DNA from: Clostridiales bacterium
GTDB lineage: Bacteria; Bacillota; Clostridia; Christensenellales; CAG-138
Direction of reading: 5' to 3'
DNA: 64,000 bases
Assembly (NCBI GenBank): GCA_024691085.1
Contig: JAILNX010000034.1
Coordinates: 1 to 64,000 of the forward strand
The notes under the pieces were generated by a model. The model made no database searches. It was given only the letters and a program-made list of their open reading frames with translations, and was not told where the DNA came from. Both the position numbers and the translations under genes were made by a program. Positions 28,100 through 63,599 of the stretch are shown here, piece by piece. Positions within the stretch are counted from its first letter, which is position 1. Every line of letters starts with the position of its first letter.

Positions 28100-28260
28100 C
28101 TTTCCACATAAAAAGCGGAGCGTCCTGCGCCGTTTGCCGGTCGGGGATCAAAAACGCAAGGCGGCGCAAGTGATTATAATATTCGGTCAAATGTGGAAAA
28201 CTCACAGGGTTTTTTGTGGAAAACTCGGAAAACCCGGGGAAGCCGCTCGGGTTTTCCACA
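28100..28260. other. Cluster of DnaA-box-like TTTTCCACA sites
   Basis: Three exact TTTTCCACA 9-mers (28192-28200 minus, 28215-28223 minus, 28252-28260 plus) and one CTTTCCACA (28100-28108 plus) occur in 161 bp between the kinase gene and the lipoprotein gene. TTTTCCACA differs by one base from the DnaA consensus TTATCCACA. A 10-bp inverted repeat GGAAAACCCG/CGGGTTTTCC (28228-28258) overlaps the last site and could also terminate the upstream lipoprotein transcript. Confidence 0.45.
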
Positions 28261-50043: not shown

Positions 50044-51156
50044 TTACGCCCAGCCGGTCTTGTTGAGGTCGGGGCCGGTGGTGGATGTTTCGTCGTTCGA
50101 GACGTGCTCGCTGTCCGATACGAACATGAACCATCTGAACCAGTCGACGTCGCGGTAATTGGTAGCCGTGCCGTCTGACCAGGTAACGTCAACGTAATAG
50201 GTGCCGCCGAGGAGCGTGACCTCGTCCCAGAAATGCATGGTGCTGTCCGTATGACCGTTCGTCACGCGCCTGCAGGCGAGGTTCGCGACGCGGCAGAGGT
50301 ACTCGAATCCGAGCGTGTAGCCCTGGCAGATGGAATGACCGTTCACGATCGCGCCGTAAGCGTTCATGGCATAAGGCGGGGTCTCCTCGTTTTCCATGTG
50401 GAGATACGAGGTATTGTCTGAGATATAATAAGCGAGAGCGCGGTACTTGTCGATCGTGGAGAAGTCGTCGGGTATGCGGCTCACGACAAAACTCGCGACC
50501 GCTTCGAATGCCTCGGCCTGGGCCTTGACCTCTTCCATATCTTCCGCCTGCTCCAGATATCTTCCCTCCGGAAGGAAGAAAACGGTCTTATAGGAGGTGA
50601 CCGTCTGCTGATCGGTCTCGTCTTCCGCGGCAGCCTTTTCGACCGCGAAATAGATCTCTATCTCGGGATGGTCGATGAACAGCGCTTCTGAAATACGGGC
50701 GATGACCTCCTCATCGGGATAGTCGAAAGTGACGGGCGAAAAGCTCTTCGCGCTCGCGAGCAGGTTCTCGTAGATGGCAAGCTCGTGCGGAGCAAGCTCT
50801 TTGTACTTATTCTGTCCGACAAAGGGCTGTGCGGGGCTCTCATATCTTATGGGAGAAGCGGAGATGTAGCTTAAGACCTCGTCGATCCTGCCCATCGCAT
50901 TCATGAGGCAGGTCTTCGCGAAATCGCCGAGCTCCCTGTATTCTTCGGGGAGACCGGGATAGGGATCCCGGGTCGGTGCGACCGTGGGTTCGGGCGTCTC
51001 GTCGGGCTCCGTGGGCTCGGGCGTAATATCCGCCTGCTGCGTCGGGGCAGCGGTATAGGTTATTGAAGCAAGATAATCGGTGATGTCAAAATACCTGCAG
51101 CCGACGGCCGGTATCACCAATGCGGCGATCAATAAAAGTGCAACGTATTTTTTCAT
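50044..51156 (-). CDS. Transglutaminase-like lipoprotein
   Basis: A 370-residue predicted surface lipoprotein with lipobox PAVGC (Cys20) and a Thr/Pro/Glu linker to about residue 65. The C-terminal transglutaminase-like domain has a papain-type triad: Cys277 in NGHSICQGYTLGFEYLC, His308 in MHFWDEV and Asp323 in GTYYVDVTWSD. The N-terminal helical region contains DYPDEEVIARISEALFIDHPEIEIYF, also seen in other transglutaminase-like lipoproteins of this type. It may crosslink or cleave surface proteins. It is a close paralogue of the next gene, 79 bp away. Confidence 0.85.
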   Translation of the reverse strand: MKKYVALLLIAALVIPAVGCRYFDITDYLASITYTAAPTQQADITPEPTEPDETPEPTVAPTRDPYPGLPEEYRELGDFAKTCLMNAMGRIDEVLSYISASPIRYESPAQPFVGQNKYKELAPHELAIYENLLASAKSFSPVTFDYPDEEVIARISEALFIDHPEIEIYFAVEKAAAEDETDQQTVTSYKTVFFLPEGRYLEQAEDMEEVKAQAEAFEAVASFVVSRIPDDFSTIDKYRALAYYISDNTSYLHMENEETPPYAMNAYGAIVNGHSICQGYTLGFEYLCRVANLACRRVTNGHTDSTMHFWDEVTLLGGTYYVDVTWSDGTATNYRDVDWFRWFMFVSDSEHVSNDETSTTGPDLNKTGWA

Positions 51157-51235: not shown

Positions 51236-52321
51236 TTATTTCCAGCTTTCCTTTCTGAATTCGGGGCCGGTGGTTCGGGTGCCGTCATCTGAAACGTGAT
51301 ATGCGTCCGCAGTGAACAGGAACCAGTCGAACCAATCCCTGCTTAAGTAGCTCGAAGAACCGTCGGACCACGTCACGTCAACGTAGTAGGTGCCGCCCTT
51401 CAGCGTGACCTCGTTCCAGTAGTGCATTTCTTCGCCCGTCTCTCCGTTGGTGAGCCTTCTGCAGGCAAGGCCGGCCGTGCGGCAGAGATACTCGAATCCG
51501 AAAGAGTAGCCCTGGCAGATGGAATACCCGTTCACGACCGCTCCGTACGCGTCCGTGGCATAGGGAGGCATCTCCTCGTTCCTCATAGTAAGATAGGTCG
51601 TGTTGGAGGAGACGTAACAGGCGATCGCGCGGTATTTGTCGATTGCGGAAAAATCGTCGGGTATGCACCCGACAACGTATCCTGCGACGGCTTCGAAAGC
51701 CTCGACCTGGGCTTTTACCTCGTCTATATCTTCCGCCTGCCTTAAGTATCTTCCGCCGGGGGCGAAGATAACGGTACGGTACGAGGCGTCTTCTATATTT
51801 TTAACGGTAAAGTAGATCTCCGTCTCGGGATGGTCGATATGGATCGCCTCGAGCACACGGTTCACTGCCTCGCCGTCCTCATACTCAAAAACTATCGCGG
51901 AGAAGTCCTTCGCGCTTTCACAGAGCTTTCCGTAAAGAGCGCGCTCGTCCTCCGTAAGCTCCGCAAATCTGTCCGCGGTTTCATAAGGAAGAGAGCTCCC
52001 CCCGACGCCTATGGGATAGGAGGAGATGTGCCTTATTATAGAGCCCATCTTTTTCATGGCTTTCAAAACACAGCTCTTTGCAAAATCGCCGAGCTCCCTG
52101 TATTCTTCCGGCAGCGCCGCATAGGGATCCTCCGTTGGGGCAGGAGTGGGTTCTTCCGTTTTCGTGGGCTCCGTCGGAGAGGAAGAAGCTGCCGCTTCAG
52201 TTATTATGGGAGCGTCAGTCGGAAAATCTGAGGCGTAGGGAGCGACAGGCGTCCTGTTCCCGCAGCCTGCTGCCGTAATAATCAGTACTAATATCAGAAT
52301 TAGTGCGGCAATTCTTTTCAT
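51236..52321 (-). CDS. Transglutaminase-like lipoprotein, paralogue
   Basis: A 361-residue paralogue of the gene at 50044, with lipobox TAAGC (Cys20), Thr/Pro linker, YAALPEEYRELGDFAKSC (near-identical block in the sister protein), and the triad segments NGYSICQGYSFGFEYLC, MHYWNEV and GTYYVDVTWSD. Start 52321 is one base after the galK stop (TGA-A-ATG), which suggests translational coupling to galK. A longer frame to 52345 inside galK is rejected. Confidence 0.85.
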   Translation of the reverse strand: MKRIAALILILVLIITAAGCGNRTPVAPYASDFPTDAPIITEAAASSSPTEPTKTEEPTPAPTEDPYAALPEEYRELGDFAKSCVLKAMKKMGSIIRHISSYPIGVGGSSLPYETADRFAELTEDERALYGKLCESAKDFSAIVFEYEDGEAVNRVLEAIHIDHPETEIYFTVKNIEDASYRTVIFAPGGRYLRQAEDIDEVKAQVEAFEAVAGYVVGCIPDDFSAIDKYRAIACYVSSNTTYLTMRNEEMPPYATDAYGAVVNGYSICQGYSFGFEYLCRTAGLACRRLTNGETGEEMHYWNEVTLKGGTYYVDVTWSDGSSSYLSRDWFDWFLFTADAYHVSDDGTRTTGPEFRKESWK

Positions 52322-52322
52322 T

Positions 52323-53510
52323 TCATTCGGCAAAAGGCGAATCATAGGTCTCCGCCTTCATTATCTCGCAGTCGTAGCCTATTTTTTCCTTATAAACGCG
52401 GGCGATGTTTTCCTTCGCCTCGTCCGCAAACTCCTTTTTCACAAGAGCTATCGCGCAGCCGCCGAAGCCGGCTCCTGTCATTCGAGCGCCGAGAACGCCC
52501 TTCTGAGCCCTTGCGGCGTCGACTATCGCGTCGAGCTCAGCGCCCGTGACCTCGTAATCATCCCTTAATGAATCGTGCGAGGCGTTAAGAAGCCTTCCGA
52601 AAAAATCTATATCGCCGTTCTTTAAAGCGGTCTCGGAATCGAGAGTCCTTCTATTCTCATAAACTGCGTGTTTCGCGCGTCTTCTGATAGGATCGGGAAG
52701 AAGCTCTTCGACCTTTTCAAACTCCTCCGGCGTTATCTCGCAGAGATTTTTCTTCTCTTTATCGAACTTTTTTCCGATAATTAAGAGCGCTTTTTCGCAC
52801 TCGCTCCTTCTCTCGTTATACTTGGAATCGGCAAGTCTCCTCGTCTTTTTCGTGTTCATGATAAGGAGGGTGTGATCCTTGAGAACGAAGGGCGAATACT
52901 CGTATTCGAGCGTCGAGGTGTCAAGCAGTATCGCGTGATCCTTTTTTCCCATCGCGCAGACGAATTGATCCATAATGCCGCAGTTGACGCCGGCGCAGTC
53001 ACGCTCCGCCTCGAGCGATACGATCGACGCGGTCACGCCATCAAGCTCCAATCCGAAGAGCTTTTTTAAAACGGCGCAGGTCAGCACCTCGAGCGAAGCG
53101 GAGGACGAAAGCCCCGAGCCCCTCGGAAGACTTCCGGTGACCGCCATCTCAAAGCCGCTCATCTTGTGTCCGCGCATAATTAACTTTTTGAATACTCCGA
53201 GAGGATACGCCGCCCAGCCGAAAGCGCGGAACGAATCCGGATCGTCATTTATCTCCTCTATTACGGAGACCTCTGTTTCGATATAGCTGCCGCTGAAATC
53301 AGCGGAGACGAGCATTATTCTGCCATCGTCCCTCTTTGAAGCGGCGCCGTAAGTGCCGACGGAAAGCGAGCACGGAAGCACTCTGCCGCCGTTATAGTCG
53401 ATGTGCTCGCCGATAAGATTTACTCTGCCGGGAGTGAAAAGATCTATTTCCTCTTCCCTTCTGAAATAGTCGCTGTAACAATCCCTTACTTTATCAAGAT
53501 AATTATCCAT
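52323..53510 (-). CDS. galK: Galactokinase
   Basis: Phosphorylates galactose to galactose 1-phosphate (Leloir pathway). The 395-residue GHMP kinase has the galactokinase signature PGRVNLIGEHIDYNGGRVLP at about 28-47, the ATP loop GSLPRGSGLSSSASLEV at about 125-141, and the C-terminal GARMTGAGFGGCAIALV. No galT or galE is adjacent; instead two transglutaminase-like lipoprotein genes follow. Confidence 0.96.
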   Translation of the reverse strand: MDNYLDKVRDCYSDYFRREEEIDLFTPGRVNLIGEHIDYNGGRVLPCSLSVGTYGAASKRDDGRIMLVSADFSGSYIETEVSVIEEINDDPDSFRAFGWAAYPLGVFKKLIMRGHKMSGFEMAVTGSLPRGSGLSSSASLEVLTCAVLKKLFGLELDGVTASIVSLEAERDCAGVNCGIMDQFVCAMGKKDHAILLDTSTLEYEYSPFVLKDHTLLIMNTKKTRRLADSKYNERRSECEKALLIIGKKFDKEKKNLCEITPEEFEKVEELLPDPIRRRAKHAVYENRRTLDSETALKNGDIDFFGRLLNASHDSLRDDYEVTGAELDAIVDAARAQKGVLGARMTGAGFGGCAIALVKKEFADEAKENIARVYKEKIGYDCEIMKAETYDSPFAE

Positions 53511-54619: not shown

Positions 54620-55732
54620 TCAGCTCTTAAGAAGCCTTACCGGAAGAACAAGATAATAGAACTTATCTCCCTGAACCGGCTCGATCACACAAGGAGTAAC
54701 GCTCGTGTTGAAGCTCAGCGCGACGCTCTCTTCGTCTATGTTCTTCATGATATCGAGCATGAACTTCACGTTGAAAGCTATCTCGATGGGGCTGCCGACG
54801 AGGTTTACCTGAATGCTTTCGTTTACGGATCCGATCTCGCTCCTCGCGCTTATCGAAAGCTCGCCGTCATCGAAATCCATCTTTACAAGATTGTTCTGAT
54901 TGTCCTTCGCGATAAGGAAGGCGATCTCGAGGCTCTCTAAGAAGTCCGCTCTGTTCACAAGCACGCGGGTGACGGATTTCTTTGAAAGAATATTGTTGTA
55001 ATTGATGAATTCTCCCTTAAGAAGCCTTGCCTTTATCTTAGTGACGCCAAGGCTGATCGTAATATGAGTAGCTGAAAGCGTGACTTCCGTTTCATCGTCT
55101 GTGTCGGAGATGATATTTGAAATATCCTGCATGGTCTTCGAGGGAACGACGGCGTTCCTCTGATTGCCGCGAAGAGAAACCTTCTCTGAGCGCTTAGCTA
55201 TCCTGTAACCGTCAAGCGCAACGAGATTGAGATAACCCTCCTCGGTGAACTCCATAAGCACGCCGCGGAGGATAGCCTTTCCTTCATCCTCGTTCGCGCA
55301 GCAGAATACGGTCTGCTTTATCATCGACCTTAAGGTTTTCTGTTTGATGGTAAATGAAGCGTCGCTCTTGACCTCATCCATTTTGGGATAGTCTTCAGTA
55401 TCGAAATACTGAAGAGAGGACCTGCTCTTTCCGGATACAACGTTGATCGCGGAGTTTTCGCCTGTCTCGAATTCGACCTTCTTTCCCTTCATCCTTTTCA
55501 TAAGATCGAAGGTGAGCCTTCCGGGAAGCACTGCGGCGCCTTCTTCCTCGATCAAAGCGGGAATGCTCGTTTCTATCTGAACGGAGGAATCGGAGCATTT
55601 CATATAGAGCTCGTTTCCGTAAACGCTCATATAAATGCCGCTTAATATCTTAAGCTCGTTATTCGGGGAGAGCGCCTTTGTCACGATGGACAAAGCTTCG
55701 TTCAACTCGCTTGTTTCAACGCTGAATTTCAT
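54620..55732 (-). CDS. dnaN: DNA polymerase III beta subunit (sliding clamp)
   Basis: Ring-shaped processivity clamp of 370 residues in three repeated domains. Recognisable are MKFSVETSELNEALSIVTKALSPNNELKILSGIYMSV, EDYPKMDEV, VLMEFTEEGYLNLVALDGYRIAKRSE and the C-terminal PVQGDKFYYLVLPVRLLKS with the usual LPVR ending. It normally stands between dnaA and recF; here the downstream neighbour is convergent, and the upstream side is an AT-rich spacer followed by an unrelated gene. AAAAGGAGT precedes the start. Confidence 0.97.
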   Translation of the reverse strand: MKFSVETSELNEALSIVTKALSPNNELKILSGIYMSVYGNELYMKCSDSSVQIETSIPALIEEEGAAVLPGRLTFDLMKRMKGKKVEFETGENSAINVVSGKSRSSLQYFDTEDYPKMDEVKSDASFTIKQKTLRSMIKQTVFCCANEDEGKAILRGVLMEFTEEGYLNLVALDGYRIAKRSEKVSLRGNQRNAVVPSKTMQDISNIISDTDDETEVTLSATHITISLGVTKIKARLLKGEFINYNNILSKKSVTRVLVNRADFLESLEIAFLIAKDNQNNLVKMDFDDGELSISARSEIGSVNESIQVNLVGSPIEIAFNVKFMLDIMKNIDEESVALSFNTSVTPCVIEPVQGDKFYYLVLPVRLLKS

Positions 55733-55836
55733 ATCTTTTGACTCCTTTTATGAATATCTTTGTTATTAATTACAGAAGCAGTATCAGCAGGCAATGAGGA
55801 TTCTGTTGATAAGCCTTTTTTTATTAACTCTTCCAT
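55729..55836 (-). CDS. Possible 35-codon ORF overlapping the dnaN start
   Basis: MEELIKKGLSTESSLPADTA... ends in TGA that overlaps the dnaN ATG (ATGA), with the dnaN RBS inside it. There is no convincing RBS before its own start, and it resembles no known family, so it may be a coincidental frame or a leader peptide. Confidence 0.25.
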   Translation of the reverse strand: MEELIKKGLSTESSLPADTASVINNKDIHKRSQKI

Positions 55837-55950
55837 AAAAAATACGATATGGAAAAGATAGGAAATAAGAGTGGAAAAATCCCAGTTTTTAAAAGTTTTC
55901 CATATTTTTATAATTATACATATTAACATTTGAGTTATTAATATGGAAAA
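55804..55950. other. AT-rich spacer with DnaA-box-like 9-mers upstream of dnaN
   Basis: In about 150 bp there are TTATCAACA (55804-55812, minus), TCTTCCATA (55829-55837, plus), TTTTCCATA (55848-55856 minus, 55896-55904 plus, 55942-55950 minus) and TTTTCCACT (55870-55878, minus). The spacer is far more AT-rich than the rest of the window, with runs such as TTTTTATAATTATA. This combination is what is expected of an origin or a DnaA-regulated promoter. Confidence 0.5.
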
Positions 55951-55967
55951 CTATGAAAACTCACGGT

Positions 55968-58331
55968 TTAAACAAAGCTCGTTTCCTCTTCCTGCTCGTC
56001 GTATCCGCAGGGGATAAACTGCTTTATAAGCTGCGCCACCTTTTCAGCCTTTTCCTCGTGGGCGAGATGTCCGGCGTTCCTTATAATCGTGTAATTTACT
56101 TTCGGCATAACGGCTCTGAAAAGGTCTGCCATTTCCGTGGGATGCCATTTATCCTCGTTGCCCCACATAAGAAGGGTATCGGCGTTGACGCTCCTTAAGG
56201 AATGGATGACCTCTTCGTCGTCATAGTAGGAAATGCACGAGCGAATAACACGCTTCGCGTCTGATGAGGCGATCGGCTTATAGTATTCGTTGCAAAGATC
56301 GTCCGTATGGTTCGTAAGATCGAAATAGCATTCGCCGAGCATTTTCTTTACCGAACGGTATGAAAGAAGATTTACGGCGAGGCCGCCTAAGAAGCGGTTT
56401 GATATCATCCTCACTGAATTGGGCATTTCCGCGGTGATGCCGCCGGGGGAGAGAAGTACTATCTTTCCAACCCTGTCCGGATAGCGCTTCGCGAAATTGA
56501 TAACGTAGCCTGCTCCCATCGAGAAACCGAAGAGATGCGCGTATTCCATGCCCATCGCTTCCATGAAATGATCGATGAAATCGCCCATTTCGTTGAGCGA
56601 ATAATCGAAATAATAGGGTTTCTGGGAATAGCCGAAGCCCACGAGATCGATCGCGGTCACGCGGAATCTCGACGAGAGCTTGTCGATAAGATCTCGGAAT
56701 GTATAAAGGCTTTGACCGACGGAATGGATGAGGAGAAGATCCTCGCCCTTTCCCTTCTGAAGATAATGGATCTTGACTGTTTCGTACTTTGCGTTGATGG
56801 TGCGGACGGAAAGCCTCCTGCGCTCCGCCTCGGCTTCGCTGTTTTCGGCCTCCGCGACCGCAGAGTCCCTCGCCGCCATGTCTATCTCGAGCTGGCTGTC
56901 CAGCTGACGGAGCTCCGACTGGAGCCTGTCGCATATGCTCTTCTGCGTCTTCCTGTCCTTTTCCGCCATCTGATATGAAGAATTGATGCCGTCGAACGCG
57001 GTCTTGCGCGAGATGTAGTTTGCCTCGGATCTCTTCATTATCAGATTGTTTTCATCCATGACGCTGCGCGCGTTGTCCATTTCTTCGCGCGCTTTTTTAC
57101 TTTCTTCCCGGCGGCGGTTAAGATCGGTCTCGGCGTTAAGAAGCGCTTTCTTGCCGTCGACTACGCTTGCCTCGCCGGACTTAAGATCGCGGGCGTTCGA
57201 TTCCATATCTTCCTGGGATTTAAAATATCCCTTTGCTGCGGAATCGTATTTTGCCTCAGCCTCGGCCGCCCTTGATAAAGCCGCGGAGGATCTTGCCTTC
57301 AGTTCGTCAAGTTCTGAGCGGCATACGGACAGCAGTTCGTTCGAACGGTTGAACTCGATCTCCGCCTTTGAAGCCTCGGCCTCCGCCTCGGAGAGAGCCT
57401 TTTCCGCGTCCAGCTTCATATATCCGGCGTTGTCGAGCCTCGTTGTGGCGGCGGCGAGCTTTGCCCTCTGGGAAGCCGCCTTCGCCCTTAACGATTCGGG
57501 ATCGCCCTTGCCCTCCATGACCGCCTTTTCCGCGTTCGAGAGCGCCTCCGCGAGTGAGGAATGATCGGCGGACGCCTTTACGAATTCCTTCGCGGCGTTC
57601 TGCTGATTCCTCTGCGCGTCATTGAGCTTTTTCTGCTCGGATTTCATAACGGCCAGAAGCTGAGCTGTTATATTCGTAAGCTCGTTGAACTTTATGTTCT
57701 TCTCCGCTTCGAGCGCCGCCGCGTCGTTGGCCTCCTGGCGGGCCTTCTCAGATATTACCTTAAGCTCCGCGGATTCGCCCATGGCGGAGGACACGCGGTC
57801 CTCGTGCTTCATGCCGCTCTCCTTTAATGAAGCGAGCGAGCTCTCCTTTACGGAAAGCGTCGCGCGGCAGTCGTTCACGACCGTCTCCGCCGCTCTCTCC
57901 GCGGAAAGCGCCGAATTGTAAGAGCTCTCAGCTGCGTCGAAAAGCTCCTTTTTCACCGCGAAAATATTAGATTTCTCGTTGTAGTCGGCGTACGCCTCCT
58001 CAAGCGCCGCCCGCTTTGAATCGAGCTCGGGCTGCATGTCGTTCTGCTGTGAGATGATCTCGTCGAGGATCGACCTCGCCTCGGAAAGCTCATCGGATTT
58101 CATCGAGCGGAGACGCGCCGAGTTTTCCGCACGGTCGCGTGCTTTCTGCGCTGCTCGGGCCTTGGTCTCGGCCTGGCTCCTCGCGCCCCTGGCGGCGGAC
58201 TTGTCCCTGTTGACCTCGCGCACCTCGGCGCGCTCAACGGGCAGCTCGCTCGGCAGGACGACGCTTACGTAATCTCCCATATGCTCGTTATTCATAAACC
58301 TTTTGACTTCAAGAGAAAGATTCATATTCAT
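55968..58331 (-). CDS. Long coiled-coil protein fused to an alpha/beta hydrolase
   Basis: A 787-residue protein in one continuous frame. Residues 1-35 are short and non-coiled (VSVVLPSELPVERAEV). About 40-510 are almost unbroken Ala/Glu/Lys/Arg/Ser-rich coiled coil with no Pro-rich break except near 275-280. About 512-780 form an alpha/beta hydrolase: oxyanion region LLLIHSVGQS (533-541), nucleophile elbow GFSMGAG with Ser604, acid Asp727 in WGNEDKWHP, and His755 in NAGHLAHEE, so the triad is intact. No signal peptide or membrane segment is seen, so it is probably cytoplasmic. GGAAGG precedes the start (58331 or 58325). I know no family with this architecture. The substrate is unknown. Confidence 0.85.
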   Translation of the reverse strand: MNMNLSLEVKRFMNNEHMGDYVSVVLPSELPVERAEVREVNRDKSAARGARSQAETKARAAQKARDRAENSARLRSMKSDELSEARSILDEIISQQNDMQPELDSKRAALEEAYADYNEKSNIFAVKKELFDAAESSYNSALSAERAAETVVNDCRATLSVKESSLASLKESGMKHEDRVSSAMGESAELKVISEKARQEANDAAALEAEKNIKFNELTNITAQLLAVMKSEQKKLNDAQRNQQNAAKEFVKASADHSSLAEALSNAEKAVMEGKGDPESLRAKAASQRAKLAAATTRLDNAGYMKLDAEKALSEAEAEASKAEIEFNRSNELLSVCRSELDELKARSSAALSRAAEAEAKYDSAAKGYFKSQEDMESNARDLKSGEASVVDGKKALLNAETDLNRRREESKKAREEMDNARSVMDENNLIMKRSEANYISRKTAFDGINSSYQMAEKDRKTQKSICDRLQSELRQLDSQLEIDMAARDSAVAEAENSEAEAERRRLSVRTINAKYETVKIHYLQKGKGEDLLLIHSVGQSLYTFRDLIDKLSSRFRVTAIDLVGFGYSQKPYYFDYSLNEMGDFIDHFMEAMGMEYAHLFGFSMGAGYVINFAKRYPDRVGKIVLLSPGGITAEMPNSVRMISNRFLGGLAVNLLSYRSVKKMLGECYFDLTNHTDDLCNEYYKPIASSDAKRVIRSCISYYDDEEVIHSLRSVNADTLLMWGNEDKWHPTEMADLFRAVMPKVNYTIIRNAGHLAHEEKAEKVAQLIKQFIPCGYDEQEEETSFV

Positions 58332-59514: not shown

Positions 59515-59545
59515 GGGCCTCTTGAAAAGGGGCCCCTTTTCTTGT
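59515..59545 (+). terminator. argF terminator
   Basis: GGGCCTCTT pairs with AAGGGGCCC (one U-G wobble), loop GAA, followed by CTTTTCTTGTTT. Confidence 0.7.
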
Positions 59546-59557
59546 TTAGGGGGTTCT

Positions 59558-60361
59558 ATGGCTGAGTTCCTTCACGGTCTTGAAGCTGAAATGGAGACTC
59601 CGACTTTGTACGGCGTTTTCCACATCGCGGCGTTCCTGATCATAATTGCCGCGTCCGTCCTCCTGTCCGTCCTCGGAAAGGACTCGAAGGACAAGACCTT
59701 CCGCAGGATATGCCTCGTGTTCTGGATACTGTATTTCCTCTTCGAGGCGTACAAGCAGACGATCTATTCCTTCAACTATAACGACGGCAGCCCCTATTGG
59801 GATTACCAATGGTACGCCTTCCCGTTCCAGCTCTGCTCATCGCCCCTGTACGTACTGCCCTTCGTGTTCCTATCGAAGGAGGGCTCGAACGTGCGCCGCG
59901 CTGCGGTCGGCTACATGGCGACCTACGTCTTCTTCGCGGGGGCGGCGGTAATGGCCTACCCCGGCGACGTTTTCGTAAGGACCATCGGCATCAATATCCA
60001 GACCATGTTTTGGCATGGCTCGCAGGTGATCTTAGGCTCGTTCTTCCTCACAAGGCACAGGCGCGAGCTTAACCGCCGGTTCTTCGTTTCCGCCGTCGTC
60101 GGCTTCCTTATTATGGTCGGCGTCGCCATGGCGCTCAATATGACGATCCCGAACTTCACGGACGAGACGTTCAATATGTTCTTCATCTCGCCCAAGTTCC
60201 CGTCGACGCTGCCGATACTCTCCGCGATATGGCCGGTCGTTCCGTGGCCGGTATTCTTCCTGATCTACCTAGTCGGATACACGCTCGCGGCACTCATAGT
60301 TTTCTTCGCGGCGAAGGGGATTATAAAAATTAGCGACAAAAAGAAAAAAATGGGAACCTGA
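59558..60361 (+). CDS. YwaF-like (TIGR02206-type) integral membrane protein, second copy
   Basis: A 267-residue membrane protein with about seven helices, sharing with the gene at 34415 the block FPFQLCSSPLYVLPFVFLS and a following MFWHGSQVILGSFF (conserved His). An N-terminal MAEFLHGLEAEMETPTLYGVFHIA begins the first helix. RBS AGGGGG precedes start 59558. A GGGAACC/GGGTTCCC hairpin overlaps its end. The function is unknown. Confidence 0.8.
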   Translation: MAEFLHGLEAEMETPTLYGVFHIAAFLIIIAASVLLSVLGKDSKDKTFRRICLVFWILYFLFEAYKQTIYSFNYNDGSPYWDYQWYAFPFQLCSSPLYVLPFVFLSKEGSNVRRAAVGYMATYVFFAGAAVMAYPGDVFVRTIGINIQTMFWHGSQVILGSFFLTRHRRELNRRFFVSAVVGFLIMVGVAMALNMTIPNFTDETFNMFFISPKFPSTLPILSAIWPVVPWPVFFLIYLVGYTLAALIVFFAAKGIIKISDKKKKMGT

Positions 60362-60416: not shown

Positions 60417-61943
60417 ATGAAACGCTTTATTTCATTAGTCATCATTCTTGTTATGCTCGTTCCCTTCGCCGCCTGCCGGAAGTCGCCCGACAAGGAAGCG
60501 GACAGTTCCCCCGTTCCGACGGAAACGGCGACGGAAAAGCCGGCCGATCCGACTTCAGAGCCCGTGATCCCCACCGCCGAGCCAACCGATGGGCATGACG
60601 GAGAGCTTCCCAAGGTCTTCGCGGGCGACGACGTTTTCTTCATACTCTATCCCGACGGCAGCCTTTACGGCTGGGGCAATAACATACACGGACAGGTAGG
60701 CATCGGCTCAACCGATTTCGTCAGAACTCCCGTGTACGTCGCGGACGGTCTTAGGCCCGTTTACATCGGCGAGACGGTATTCGCCCTCGACTCCGAAGGC
60801 GGTCTCTGGGGCTGGGGCAGCAACGAAGGCTACGCACTCGGTCTAGGCGATACTTTTGACAGGACGAAGCCAGAAAAGATCCTCTCGGGCGTTACGGAGT
60901 TCGCCTGCCTTGAAGACGGATGCATGTACGCTCTTACGGAAAACGGAGATCTTTTAAAATGGAGCTACGCCCCGTGGGACGACCTCACCGATTATGAAAA
61001 GGATGTCGCCGGCACTCCCTCCGTCTGCTATGAGAACGTCAAGTATTTCGACGAGGATTTCATAATCACCCGCGGCGGCGATCTGATTAAGAGATGGGGC
61101 GATTTCGAAAAGATCGCGGAAAACGTCAGCGAGGTATACGGCTTTGACGGATGGTCGACCATATATAAAGGCACGGACGACACCCTCTATGAGCTCAGAA
61201 AGGTATGGGAGTCCGACGAAACGAAGCTTCTGACTGTCTGTGAAAGCGTCCGCACCGTCATTTTCAGGGGCGCCGGGCATACTTACGTGCTCAAGGAGGA
61301 CGGCGCGCTTTACAATTACGTTCATCCGTTCATCCGCGACCAAGAAACCGAGCCTCAGCTCATATTCATGATGGACGGCGTTAAGGAGCTCATCGAGGCT
61401 TCCTCGATAAGCGAGATCTGGGCCTGCGACGCGAATTTCGCGCTCAAGGAGAACGGCGAACTGTGGGCGTGGGGCGAGATAGACGGACTCCCGCTCGGCA
61501 GGAAGGACGGCGAGGATCTCTCCGTTCCCGCGCTCGTCGCGGAAGACGTACGCGCCGTTTACACGAACGGCGGACAGACCTATTTGATACTTACGAACGG
61601 CGAGGTTTGGGCGACCGGCTTGAACGACGCCGACTGCAGCTCAATAGGCGCCGGCGCGGAGCAGAACGGAAACGTAAAAGGACTCTTCGTAAAGCTCGCT
61701 ATTGAGAACGCGGCATATATCGCAACGCGCCTGACCGCCGATCAGAGGTATGCCACCAAGGCCGGCGAGGACGAATACGAAGGCATATGGTACACAGGGA
61801 CGATAGTCTACGCGCGCACGTTCGCTGTCCTTAAGGACGGAACGATCCTCGCGTGGGGCTATAACGGCGACGGCTGCCTCGGCGCCGGTTCGGCGGATAA
61901 GATAGTGTATACTCCGTCGGAGGTTTGTCCTGAAGGAAGATAA
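60417..61943 (+). CDS. RCC1-repeat lipoprotein A
   Basis: A 508-residue surface lipoprotein with lipobox PFAAC (Cys20) and a Thr/Pro/Glu linker to about residue 60. RCC1-type propeller repeats carry the diagnostic L-x-x-W-G-x-N core: GSLYGWGNNIHGQVGIG, GGLWGWGSNEGYALGLG, GELWAWGEIDG, GEVWATGLND and GTILAWGYNGDGCLGAG. Outer blades are clear and the middle ones are degenerate. RCC1 domains bind partners or carbohydrates, so a binding or scaffolding role on the surface is inferred. It is the paralogue of the next gene. Confidence 0.85.
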   Translation: MKRFISLVIILVMLVPFAACRKSPDKEADSSPVPTETATEKPADPTSEPVIPTAEPTDGHDGELPKVFAGDDVFFILYPDGSLYGWGNNIHGQVGIGSTDFVRTPVYVADGLRPVYIGETVFALDSEGGLWGWGSNEGYALGLGDTFDRTKPEKILSGVTEFACLEDGCMYALTENGDLLKWSYAPWDDLTDYEKDVAGTPSVCYENVKYFDEDFIITRGGDLIKRWGDFEKIAENVSEVYGFDGWSTIYKGTDDTLYELRKVWESDETKLLTVCESVRTVIFRGAGHTYVLKEDGALYNYVHPFIRDQETEPQLIFMMDGVKELIEASSISEIWACDANFALKENGELWAWGEIDGLPLGRKDGEDLSVPALVAEDVRAVYTNGGQTYLILTNGEVWATGLNDADCSSIGAGAEQNGNVKGLFVKLAIENAAYIATRLTADQRYATKAGEDEYEGIWYTGTIVYARTFAVLKDGTILAWGYNGDGCLGAGSADKIVYTPSEVCPEGR

Positions 61944-61985: not shown

Positions 61986-62030
61986 TGTGCGTTATATAAT
62001 TGAATACCCAAAATGAAGGAAGGCATCCTT

Positions 62031-63599
62031 ATGAAACGCGTTATTTCATTGGTCATCATTCTTATAATGCTCGTTCCCCTCGCCGCCTGTAAAAAGGCGC
62101 CGGACAAGGAAGCGGACAATACTCCCTTACCAACGGAAACGGCGACGGAAAAGCCCGCCGCGCCAACAGCCGTGCCGACTGAAGAGCCGACCGAGGAGCC
62201 GACCGCGGAGCCGGAACCCACGCCCGTGCCCACGCCGGTCCCCGAAACGGAGCCTATGGCTCCCGCCGACGGCGTTCCCGCGGTCTATGCCGGCGAGGAC
62301 GCGTATTACATTCTCTACCCCGACGGCGCACTCTGGGGCTGGGGCAGGAATGAGGACGGCCGCATCGGCAACGGCACGACCGAGGACGTTCCGTTCCCCG
62401 TTCATATCGCGGACGGCTTAACGCCCGTATACGTCGGCAAGACCGTCTTCTGCTTAAGCGCGGACGGCATGCTGTGGGGCTGGGGCAGGAACGACGGCGG
62501 GGATCTGGGCCTCGGGGATACGACGGACAGAACAAAGCCCGAGGAGATAATGCCCTTCGTTAAGGAAATAATGCATTTCTACGATGGCTGGTACGCGCTC
62601 ACCAATAACGGAGACCTCTATAAATGGGGCTTCAACGCATGGGACGAAACCTTGACCTCGGAGCAGAAGGAAGCCGCGGCTTCTCCCGCGCTCATTTTCG
62701 AAGGCGTGCGCTCGTTCAACGGGCAGTTCCTCATAAAAGAAAATGGAGACGTGCTGAGAAAGTTCGGCGACGACTACGTCAAGATCGCGTCCGGCATAAA
62801 GCGGATCTGGACGAGCGTCGGCACTGCGATCGCAGAGGGAAAGGACGGCAAGCTCTATGAATTCGGCTACTTTTCCGGCGAAAAGGTGAAGATCTGCGAT
62901 TCCTTCCGCTCGCTCGCGTTCGACGACGCGGTCGCCTATATAATAATGAACGACGGCTCGCTCTGTTACTACGAGGTCGGAAGCCTCGACGGCATGAGGG
63001 ACGTACCCGAGGATCAGCTCCATAAGATGGTTTATATGATGGACGGCGTAAAGGAGATATACGCCGGAAGCATGTCGGACGAGGACTGGGGCTATTATTA
63101 CAGGTTCGCGCTCAGGGAAAACGGCGAGCTGTGGGCGTGGGGACTATTGTCGAACGACGTTCTCGGCAAGAGCCGCGAGAGCGAAGTGAGGGAACCCGAG
63201 CTCGTGGCGACGGACGTTAAGACCGTCTCCTGCAACGGATATAATACCTATATAATCAAGAACGACGGCACCCTGTGGGCGACCGGAGCCGACGCGATAT
63301 TCGCCTCCCTTGGCGGCGAGGCGCTGCACGGCGAGGAGAACGATTGGGTGGTCTACGGCTTCACCGAGATCCCCCTCGGCGCAAAATGCGCGGTCGTGTT
63401 CAATATTTTAAGGCTCGAGTACGGCGAGGACGAGATCTCCGACTGGGTGATACTGCACGCCGCGACCTTTGCGGTCGACGAGCACGGCGTCATCCGGGCG
63501 TGGGGCGACAACGAGGGCGAGCTCCTCGGGATCCTCTGCAACCTCAAAAAGGTCGCCCAACCCTGGCCGGTCGTTAAGTTAATGAATACTGAAAACTGA
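62031..63599 (+). CDS. RCC1-repeat lipoprotein B
   Basis: A 522-residue paralogue of the gene at 60417: nearly identical signal (MKRVISLVIILIMLVPLAAC, Cys20), a longer Glu/Pro/Thr linker to about residue 75, then the repeats GALWGWGRNEDGRIGNG, GMLWGWGRNDGGDLGLG, GELWAWGLLSNDVLG, GTLWATGADAIF and GVIRAWGDNEGELLG. GGAAGG precedes start 62031; the upstream ATG at 62013 lies before this RBS. A strong terminator follows at 63629. Confidence 0.85.
   Translation: MKRVISLVIILIMLVPLAACKKAPDKEADNTPLPTETATEKPAAPTAVPTEEPTEEPTAEPEPTPVPTPVPETEPMAPADGVPAVYAGEDAYYILYPDGALWGWGRNEDGRIGNGTTEDVPFPVHIADGLTPVYVGKTVFCLSADGMLWGWGRNDGGDLGLGDTTDRTKPEEIMPFVKEIMHFYDGWYALTNNGDLYKWGFNAWDETLTSEQKEAAASPALIFEGVRSFNGQFLIKENGDVLRKFGDDYVKIASGIKRIWTSVGTAIAEGKDGKLYEFGYFSGEKVKICDSFRSLAFDDAVAYIIMNDGSLCYYEVGSLDGMRDVPEDQLHKMVYMMDGVKEIYAGSMSDEDWGYYYRFALRENGELWAWGLLSNDVLGKSRESEVREPELVATDVKTVSCNGYNTYIIKNDGTLWATGADAIFASLGGEALHGEENDWVVYGFTEIPLGAKCAVVFNILRLEYGEDEISDWVILHAATFAVDEHGVIRAWGDNEGELLGILCNLKKVAQPWPVVKLMNTEN

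Follow-up and report, generated by a model that had tools for sequence, protein, structure and literature searches.

A coiled-coil insert, probably an antiparallel hairpin, in the first beta turn of an alpha/beta hydrolase from one clade of Clostridia

The window, meaning the whole 64,000-nucleotide stretch of DNA analysed here, carries on its reverse strand an open reading frame of 787 amino acids with an ATG start (58331..55968), with dnaN downstream of it; the features of this locus are collected in Table 1. The single 787-codon frame of the original prediction stands, the open reading frame being as described and a frame of more than 500 amino acids being present in 24 genomes. In its own genome, the whole protein and the hydrolase part each gave one match. 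Elsewhere in the window, two tandem related genes with RCC1 repeats (Pfam) lie at 60417-61943 and 62013-63599 (+), with a lipoprotein-like signal ahead of them by eye. Another tandem related pair, with a transglutaminase-like core (Pfam), is found at 50044-51156 and 51236-52345 (-), where the second start resembles a lipoprotein signal by eye. The gene at 59522-60361 (+) matches Pfam TMEM164 with 52.4 bits (cut-off 25), a family named after a human membrane protein.

Table 1 Features of the hydrolase gene, the downstream spacer and dnaN (positions in the window)
Feature	Position	Strand	Support
N-anchor, residues 1-31 (MNMNLSLEVKRFMNNEHMGDYVSVVLPSELP), read as hydrolase strand beta1	58239..58331	-	Motif precedes beta2 in insert-free relatives
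Coiled-coil insert of 484 aa, residues 32-515, interpreted as an antiparallel hairpin with two ~240-residue arms	56787..58238	-	
Conserved proline P101, arm 1 height 69, half of the putative joint	58029..58031	-	P in 20/20 heptad-only forms
Proposed hairpin tip, residues about 270-280 (AVMEGKGDPES), insert midpoint	57492..57524	-	Relatives' register change, prolines and indels here
FDGIN, residues 446-450, arm 2 height about 69, other half of the putative joint	56982..56996	-	
Alpha/beta hydrolase from strand beta2 on, residues 516-787	55971..56786	-	PF00561; 2og1, E 6.8e-21
Ser604, nucleophile (GFSMG)	56520..56522	-	S in 54/60 aligned relatives and 24/24 coil forms
Asp727, catalytic acid (GNEDKW)	56151..56153	-	Invariant in 60/60 relatives
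His755, catalytic base (NAGHLAH)	56067..56069	-	Invariant in 60/60 relatives
AT-rich spacer between the gene and dnaN, 235 bp, origin-like	55733..55967	.	Five sites like TTTTCCAYA, of which 3 exact and 2 with a single mismatch
dnaN (DNA polymerase III beta clamp)	54620..55732	-	Pfam PF00712/PF02767/PF02768; conserved downstream neighbour

By its sequence, the protein is a Ser-Asp-His alpha/beta hydrolase. Abhydrolase_1 (PF00561) covers residues 532-762 with 94.3 bits, over the gathering cut-off of 25.8, and the elbow GFSMG (602-606) is followed by D727 and H755 in the canonical order, so that the intact Ser604-Asp727-His755 triad proposed earlier was found where it had been placed, in GFSMG, GNEDKW and NAGHLAH. 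Of the solved chains, BphD (2og1) is closest in sequence. The BphD-like C-C hydrolases (2og1, 2rht) and HsaD are likewise Abhydrolase_1 members with GxSxG, then Asp, then His, but the window protein stays well below the cut-offs of their equivalogs (TIGR03343, 88.5 against 462.15 bits; NF045632, 102.8 against 400) and differs from them by its coiled-coil insert. None of the 25 best NCBIfam models attains its cut-off with the 787-residue protein, the best of those listed being NF011457 (117 of 307 bits). The protein has H-S in place of H-G, the usual form in alpha/beta hydrolases, whereas three relatives without insert (L031, L036 and L041) have H-G.

The whole triad is present in 54 of the 60 aligned relatives, including all 24 coil forms. 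The nucleophile position is occupied by Gly in L031, L036, L041 and L032, and by Thr in L042 and L094, none of which has a coil. These six short forms keep Asp and His and are candidate pseudoenzymes; activity may be lacking in certain short relatives, whereas the triad is retained in the coil clade. The enzyme is probably cytosolic, as no hydrophobic leader is seen by eye. No family of known anti-phage defence was matched in PADLOC at E 0.01, and no match among 927 plasmid records and 104 phage records spans 80% of the protein, all those listed (8 each) starting at residue 511 or later.

The original prediction described a coiled coil followed by a hydrolase. This order has to be revised, residues 1-31 being read as the hydrolase's own strand beta1 (strand names follow the general topology of the fold). 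In the insert-free relatives L031, L036 and L041, which belong to other families of the order, the N-terminal motif runs directly into beta2 (e.g. EYIDLEGIRMHYIE), and beta1, a tight turn and beta2 can be followed in such sequences (e.g. NANIGEYIDLEGIRMHYIE). Relatives start at the second Met of the N-anchor. An insert-free relative aligns with haloalkane dehalogenases and with 5mxp from about the start of beta1, according to the listed ranges, and three BphD alignments are among the matches listed. The beta1-beta2 spacing forms a ladder from short turns through 40-80 residues to 240-388 and 482-485 residues in the coil forms (8 of the 60 rows gave no motif match). The N-anchor is also the most conserved segment: in three close pairs, dN/dS is 0-0.02 for the N-anchor (29 codons), 0.10-0.14 for the coil and 0.025-0.045 for the hydrolase, values which are rough because dS is near or above 1 in some pairs. 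They indicate purifying selection. Since the N-terminal motif is beta1 in the insert-free relatives and has the lowest dN/dS, the coil is read as lying inside the hydrolase, lodged in its beta1-beta2 turn, and not ahead of it.

The hydrolase gene was found (hydrolase match at E <= 1e-40) in 100 of the 103 genomes of the window's family and in all 26 genera, with a single match in 99 of the 100. The original prediction had asked whether other genomes have the same frame, and the long form (frame >500 aa) is present in 24: all 13 of the window's genus (g1), the single genome of a second genus (g12, locus L055) and 10 of the 11 of a third (g10), whose eleventh genome, G066, gave no match. The frames of the remaining 76 family genomes are 441 aa or shorter. 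No further long form was found among draws from larger groups, with counts that include the window's own genome: 69 of 396 genomes of the order matched (longest frame outside the family 446 aa), 4 of 391 of the class, and, with the whole protein as query and two candidates scored per genome, 13 of 398 of the phylum (longest other frame 330 aa). Clostridia MAGs from rumen and abomasum account for the two relatives that carry names. For comparison, 60 proteins from the family and order were assembled, including all 24 coil forms. In the tree of the 60 hydrolase domains the coil forms make up a single clade (support 99/98), and none of the tree's 60 rows is a coil-less member of that clade. An assembly or frameshift error, which had been considered as a source of the fusion, is ruled out because the long frame recurs in 24 genomes. 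The two parts were not seen as separate genes in the 60 loci compared; in the coil-less relatives the hydrolase is the same, and a short linker or turn takes the place of the coil.

The gene is followed by dnaN on the same strand in all 13 genomes of g1 and in L055; the two genes are 1329 bp apart in L051 and 227-300 bp apart in the others. Close to the gene, dnaA occurs in eight short-form loci from seven genera. The caution that the proximity to dnaN may be chance is therefore not borne out. In the short forms L034, L038, L039, L043 and L093, dnaN-dnaA is divergent from the gene and two tandem signal peptidase genes follow the gene, an arrangement that recurs on the origin side. Near the gene are also found cca, in 15 loci including 6 of the 10 g10 loci, and gyrA, in five; in other loci it is adjoined by signal peptidase or M23/M50 peptidase genes. 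Pfam confirmed one example each of dnaA, dnaN, cca, gyrA, M23 and M50, and two of signal peptidase. Of the 46 TTTTCCAYA-like matches in the window, five lie in the spacer, the pattern having been picked after its sequence was read; exact TTATNCACA is absent from the 235 bp, which contain two copies with one mismatch. At least one TTWTCCAHA is present in 12 of the 13 spacers scanned, and the L055 spacer has canonical boxes. In the short forms with dnaA, most boxes are away from the hydrolase gene, in the dnaA-dnaN interval or at other places. The clear dnaA match of the window genome is on a separate contig. The cumulative skew minimum lies 12-15 kb from the gene here and about 4 kb from it in G005, and is uninformative in G008. 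From the box, dnaA-placement and skew results, the label "origin-like" for the spacer is fair but unproven. A DnaA-box-like cluster of three exact TTTTCCACA sites in 69 bp lies away from dnaN, at 28192-28260.

The insert of the window protein shows a hydrophobic periodicity at 3.5 residues with a power of 23.1, where 2000 shuffles gave at most 9.4; the coil alone gave no match to solved structures at E 0.001. The heptad phase was measured over the head-proximal ~100 residues of each arm, in inserts of 240 to 485 residues. Counted from the N-anchor, arm 1 has a phase of 50-77 degrees in 23 of 23 measurable forms (R 0.99), and counted from the C-anchor, arm 2 has one of 308-332 degrees in the same number (R 0.99); the phase of arm 2 is scattered when counted from the N-anchor (R 0.75). 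A constant register near the anchors is partly expected from common descent without indels, and the information it adds is that the net length change falls centrally. In sliding windows, the average of 11 members of the genus changes register at the midpoint, and the midpoint power drops to 0.3-0.5 in L055, in the g10a average (4 sequences) and in L081; the phase also drifts within an arm, by tens of degrees. The arms are in phase, and the register passes through the tip without a break, in the window genome and in L063, its nearest relative. The ~470-residue continuous coiled coil described originally is thus upheld as a long, genuine and conserved coil, but it apparently consists of two runs of ~235 residues in phase by chance, its continuity arising because these two inserts have one residue fewer at the tip (total 484), which aligns the arm phases.

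Prolines, indels and deletions point to the same place. Outside position 69, no more than 5 residues separate 7 of the 8 prolines in the 20 heptad-only forms from the midpoint, and the eighth is in L080 (binomial 2.5e-11, or 9.6e-10 with L047 and L048 merged; the window of 5 was chosen post hoc and the test treats shared ancestry lightly). A MAFFT alignment places the length differences within the genus, and those between the genus and L055, at the midpoint. Compared with its sister L081, L075 has lost 245 residues (35 heptads), with the best breakpoint at 119 of 240 on a wide plateau (111-152); when six other forms served as reference, the breakpoint was at 104-145. In L078, L079 and L083 the first and last 120 residues are periodic, while the middle has a power of 0.3-0.4 and 29-31% Glu; in these three, 116-138 heptad-free residues rich in E, K, A and P take the place of the rod's distal half. 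The whole-insert power of L056 and L076 is not significant, yet each arm alone is periodic.

The insert measures 482-485 residues in 19 of the 23 measurable forms (13 from g1, L055, and L056, L076, L077, L080 and L081 from g10), with coil identity to the window protein going down to 0.24. Taking this constancy as proof of a "ruler" was rejected because an antiparallel hairpin would tolerate no unmatched indels. Mirrored conservation about the midpoint was not significant, with the best sums elsewhere and a higher score for the direct-shift control; charge pairing at the midpoint and hydrophobicity mirroring about it gave nothing significant either. Helix-propensity mirroring ranked 18-25 of 484 for the genus, which is not significant, and 1, 1 and 3 of 240 for L075 with three smoothing widths; the g10a row, whose boundary was matched at 183 instead of 482 residues, was left out of the helix-propensity and hydrophobicity comparisons. 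When the arms of 15 representatives were compared from the head outwards, conservation correlated at zero shift with r 0.37 (window 11) and 0.20 (window 7), the best shifts being -3 and -8. An intramolecular antiparallel rod of the SMC type is favoured by register, prolines and deletion, but not by the mirror tests.

The two arms carry conserved residues at the same height from the head. Insert position 69, a proline in the heptad-only forms, is Ser in L078, L079 and L083. On arm 2, 12 of 15 representatives have an aromatic residue at height 69 from the C-anchor, the exceptions being the same three, and 10 of 15 have D at height 68. A coiled coil rises by 0.1485 nm per residue, which would put this putative joint ~10 nm from the head on a rod of ~36 nm. 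The reading that we consider probable is that of a hydrolase in which the beta1-beta2 turn is replaced by an antiparallel hairpin of ~485 residues, giving a globular head, a ~35 nm rod and a joint ~10 nm out; the pairing of both arms within one chain is what we infer from the sequences. A hairpin of this length fits the register, the prolines and the L075 deletion better than the 65-70 nm rod proposed originally, which is not borne out.

Two other geometries have to be weighed against the hairpin. Arm 1 could pair with arm 2 of another chain, so that a domain-swapped antiparallel dimer would form a dumbbell of 65-70 nm with an enzyme at each end, the beta1 of each chain completing the hydrolase of its partner. 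Local pairing would be identical and each arm would be tied to the head in the same way, so most of the evidence for the hairpin is common to both, and the dimer would suit the window genome and L063, where no register break is seen at the tip. The midpoint register change in the other members of the genus, L055, g10a and L081 speaks against it, as do the prolines and indels at the midpoint, and in L078, L079 and L083 such a dimer would be floppy because of the non-periodic middle, 116-138 residues long; we regard it as quite unlikely. The earlier picture of an extended rod of ~65-70 nm, a parallel homodimer or other assembly with the hydrolase and a free N-terminal motif at opposite ends, accounts for the whole-insert heptad power of the window protein. 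Against it speak a motif that is beta1 in the insert-free relatives and the most conserved part of the protein, the insignificant whole-insert power of L056 and L076 next to their periodic single arms, an arm 2 register that tracks the C-anchor, and the central deletion of L075; we regard it as scarcely probable.

Other explanations are compatible with the hairpin and concern what it is for. A role at the replication origin or chromosome might be suggested by dnaN, the origin-like spacer and an SMC-like outline: dnaN adjoins the gene throughout g1 and in L055, dnaA lies near the short forms mentioned above, and SMC_prok_B (TIGR02168) matches the coil at E 8.4e-6. That match reaches only 23.8 bits against a cut-off of 567.35 and is confined to the coil, and the Pfam matches include no ATPase domain; moreover, the neighbour is cca in 6 of the 10 g10 loci and a peptidase gene in some other loci, and synteny by itself is weak evidence for function. 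Such a role seems highly unlikely. The hairpin could also be a neutral embellishment, a disordered linker that grew, turned helical and is kept only because its two arms have to stay in register, with an enzyme working as in the short forms. The relatives with A/E/P-rich linkers of 40-80 residues and the two g10 lineages with a shortened or partly non-periodic rod are in line with this, and any hairpin keeps its length, since unmatched indels break the pairing. The dN/dS of the coil, the joint residues kept across genera and the lack of coil-less members in the coil clade of the 60-row tree point the other way, and we hold this explanation to be somewhat unlikely.

The hairpin can be set beside known insertions and rods. 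According to the accessible part of a survey (PMC11878206), the position after beta1 is one of five lid sites in alpha/beta hydrolases, exemplified by the Family I.3 lipase 2z8x, whose first strands are permuted and reversed; by sequence comparison, the insertion in the window protein likewise falls between beta1 and beta2, but 2z8x has a lid there and the window protein a coiled coil of ~485 residues. In the same part of the survey, DUF6792 (PF20591) is called unique for a 229-residue inserted helical domain. It resembles the window protein in being a Firmicutes hydrolase with a whole helical domain within the fold, and differs in that the insertion lies between beta8 and the catalytic His and forms a four-helix bundle with no long rod. 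The likeness to SMC and Rad50 is one of shape only: a head made from both chain ends and, as we read the window protein, an intramolecular antiparallel rod and a joint near the head, which for SMC means a 50 nm rod with a joint about 6.5 nm from the head in the accessible text of PMC10656103. The head is an ABC ATPase there and a hydrolase here, the tip of the window protein has no hinge-sized insert, and there is no sign of homology beyond coil composition. No description of a coiled-coil hairpin at beta1-beta2 of an alpha/beta hydrolase was found in the accessible text of the literature searched.

As for the mechanism, the protein is possibly, and we say so tentatively, a stalked esterase or acyl-hydrolase. 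As the rod exits the fold where some other alpha/beta hydrolases bear lids, it could hold the enzyme away from a partner, or gate the active site in response to that partner. Such a partner would dock on the half of the rod nearer the head. Docking at the tip is unlikely, given its variable sequence and a distal half that is lost in one lineage and has become disordered-looking in another. A bolder version, which we find doubtful, is an SMC-like arrangement of head, joint and rod on a serine hydrolase, in which a partner that binds or bends the rod at the joint would lever beta1 and so gate the active site, and which would have arisen from a beta turn by way of a disordered linker to a coiled-coil hairpin.

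The alpha/beta hydrolase is among the commonest enzyme folds, and its known additions include small lids, caps and extra domains. In one bacterial clade, the first beta turn has apparently received a rod several times the width of the enzyme (by estimate), and the catalytic residues have been kept. Because related genera still have short, intermediate and long forms, the origin of a coiled-coil hairpin within a folded domain may be traced here step by step, and a role as a stalk would be testable, as the rod could be removed with the enzyme left whole.
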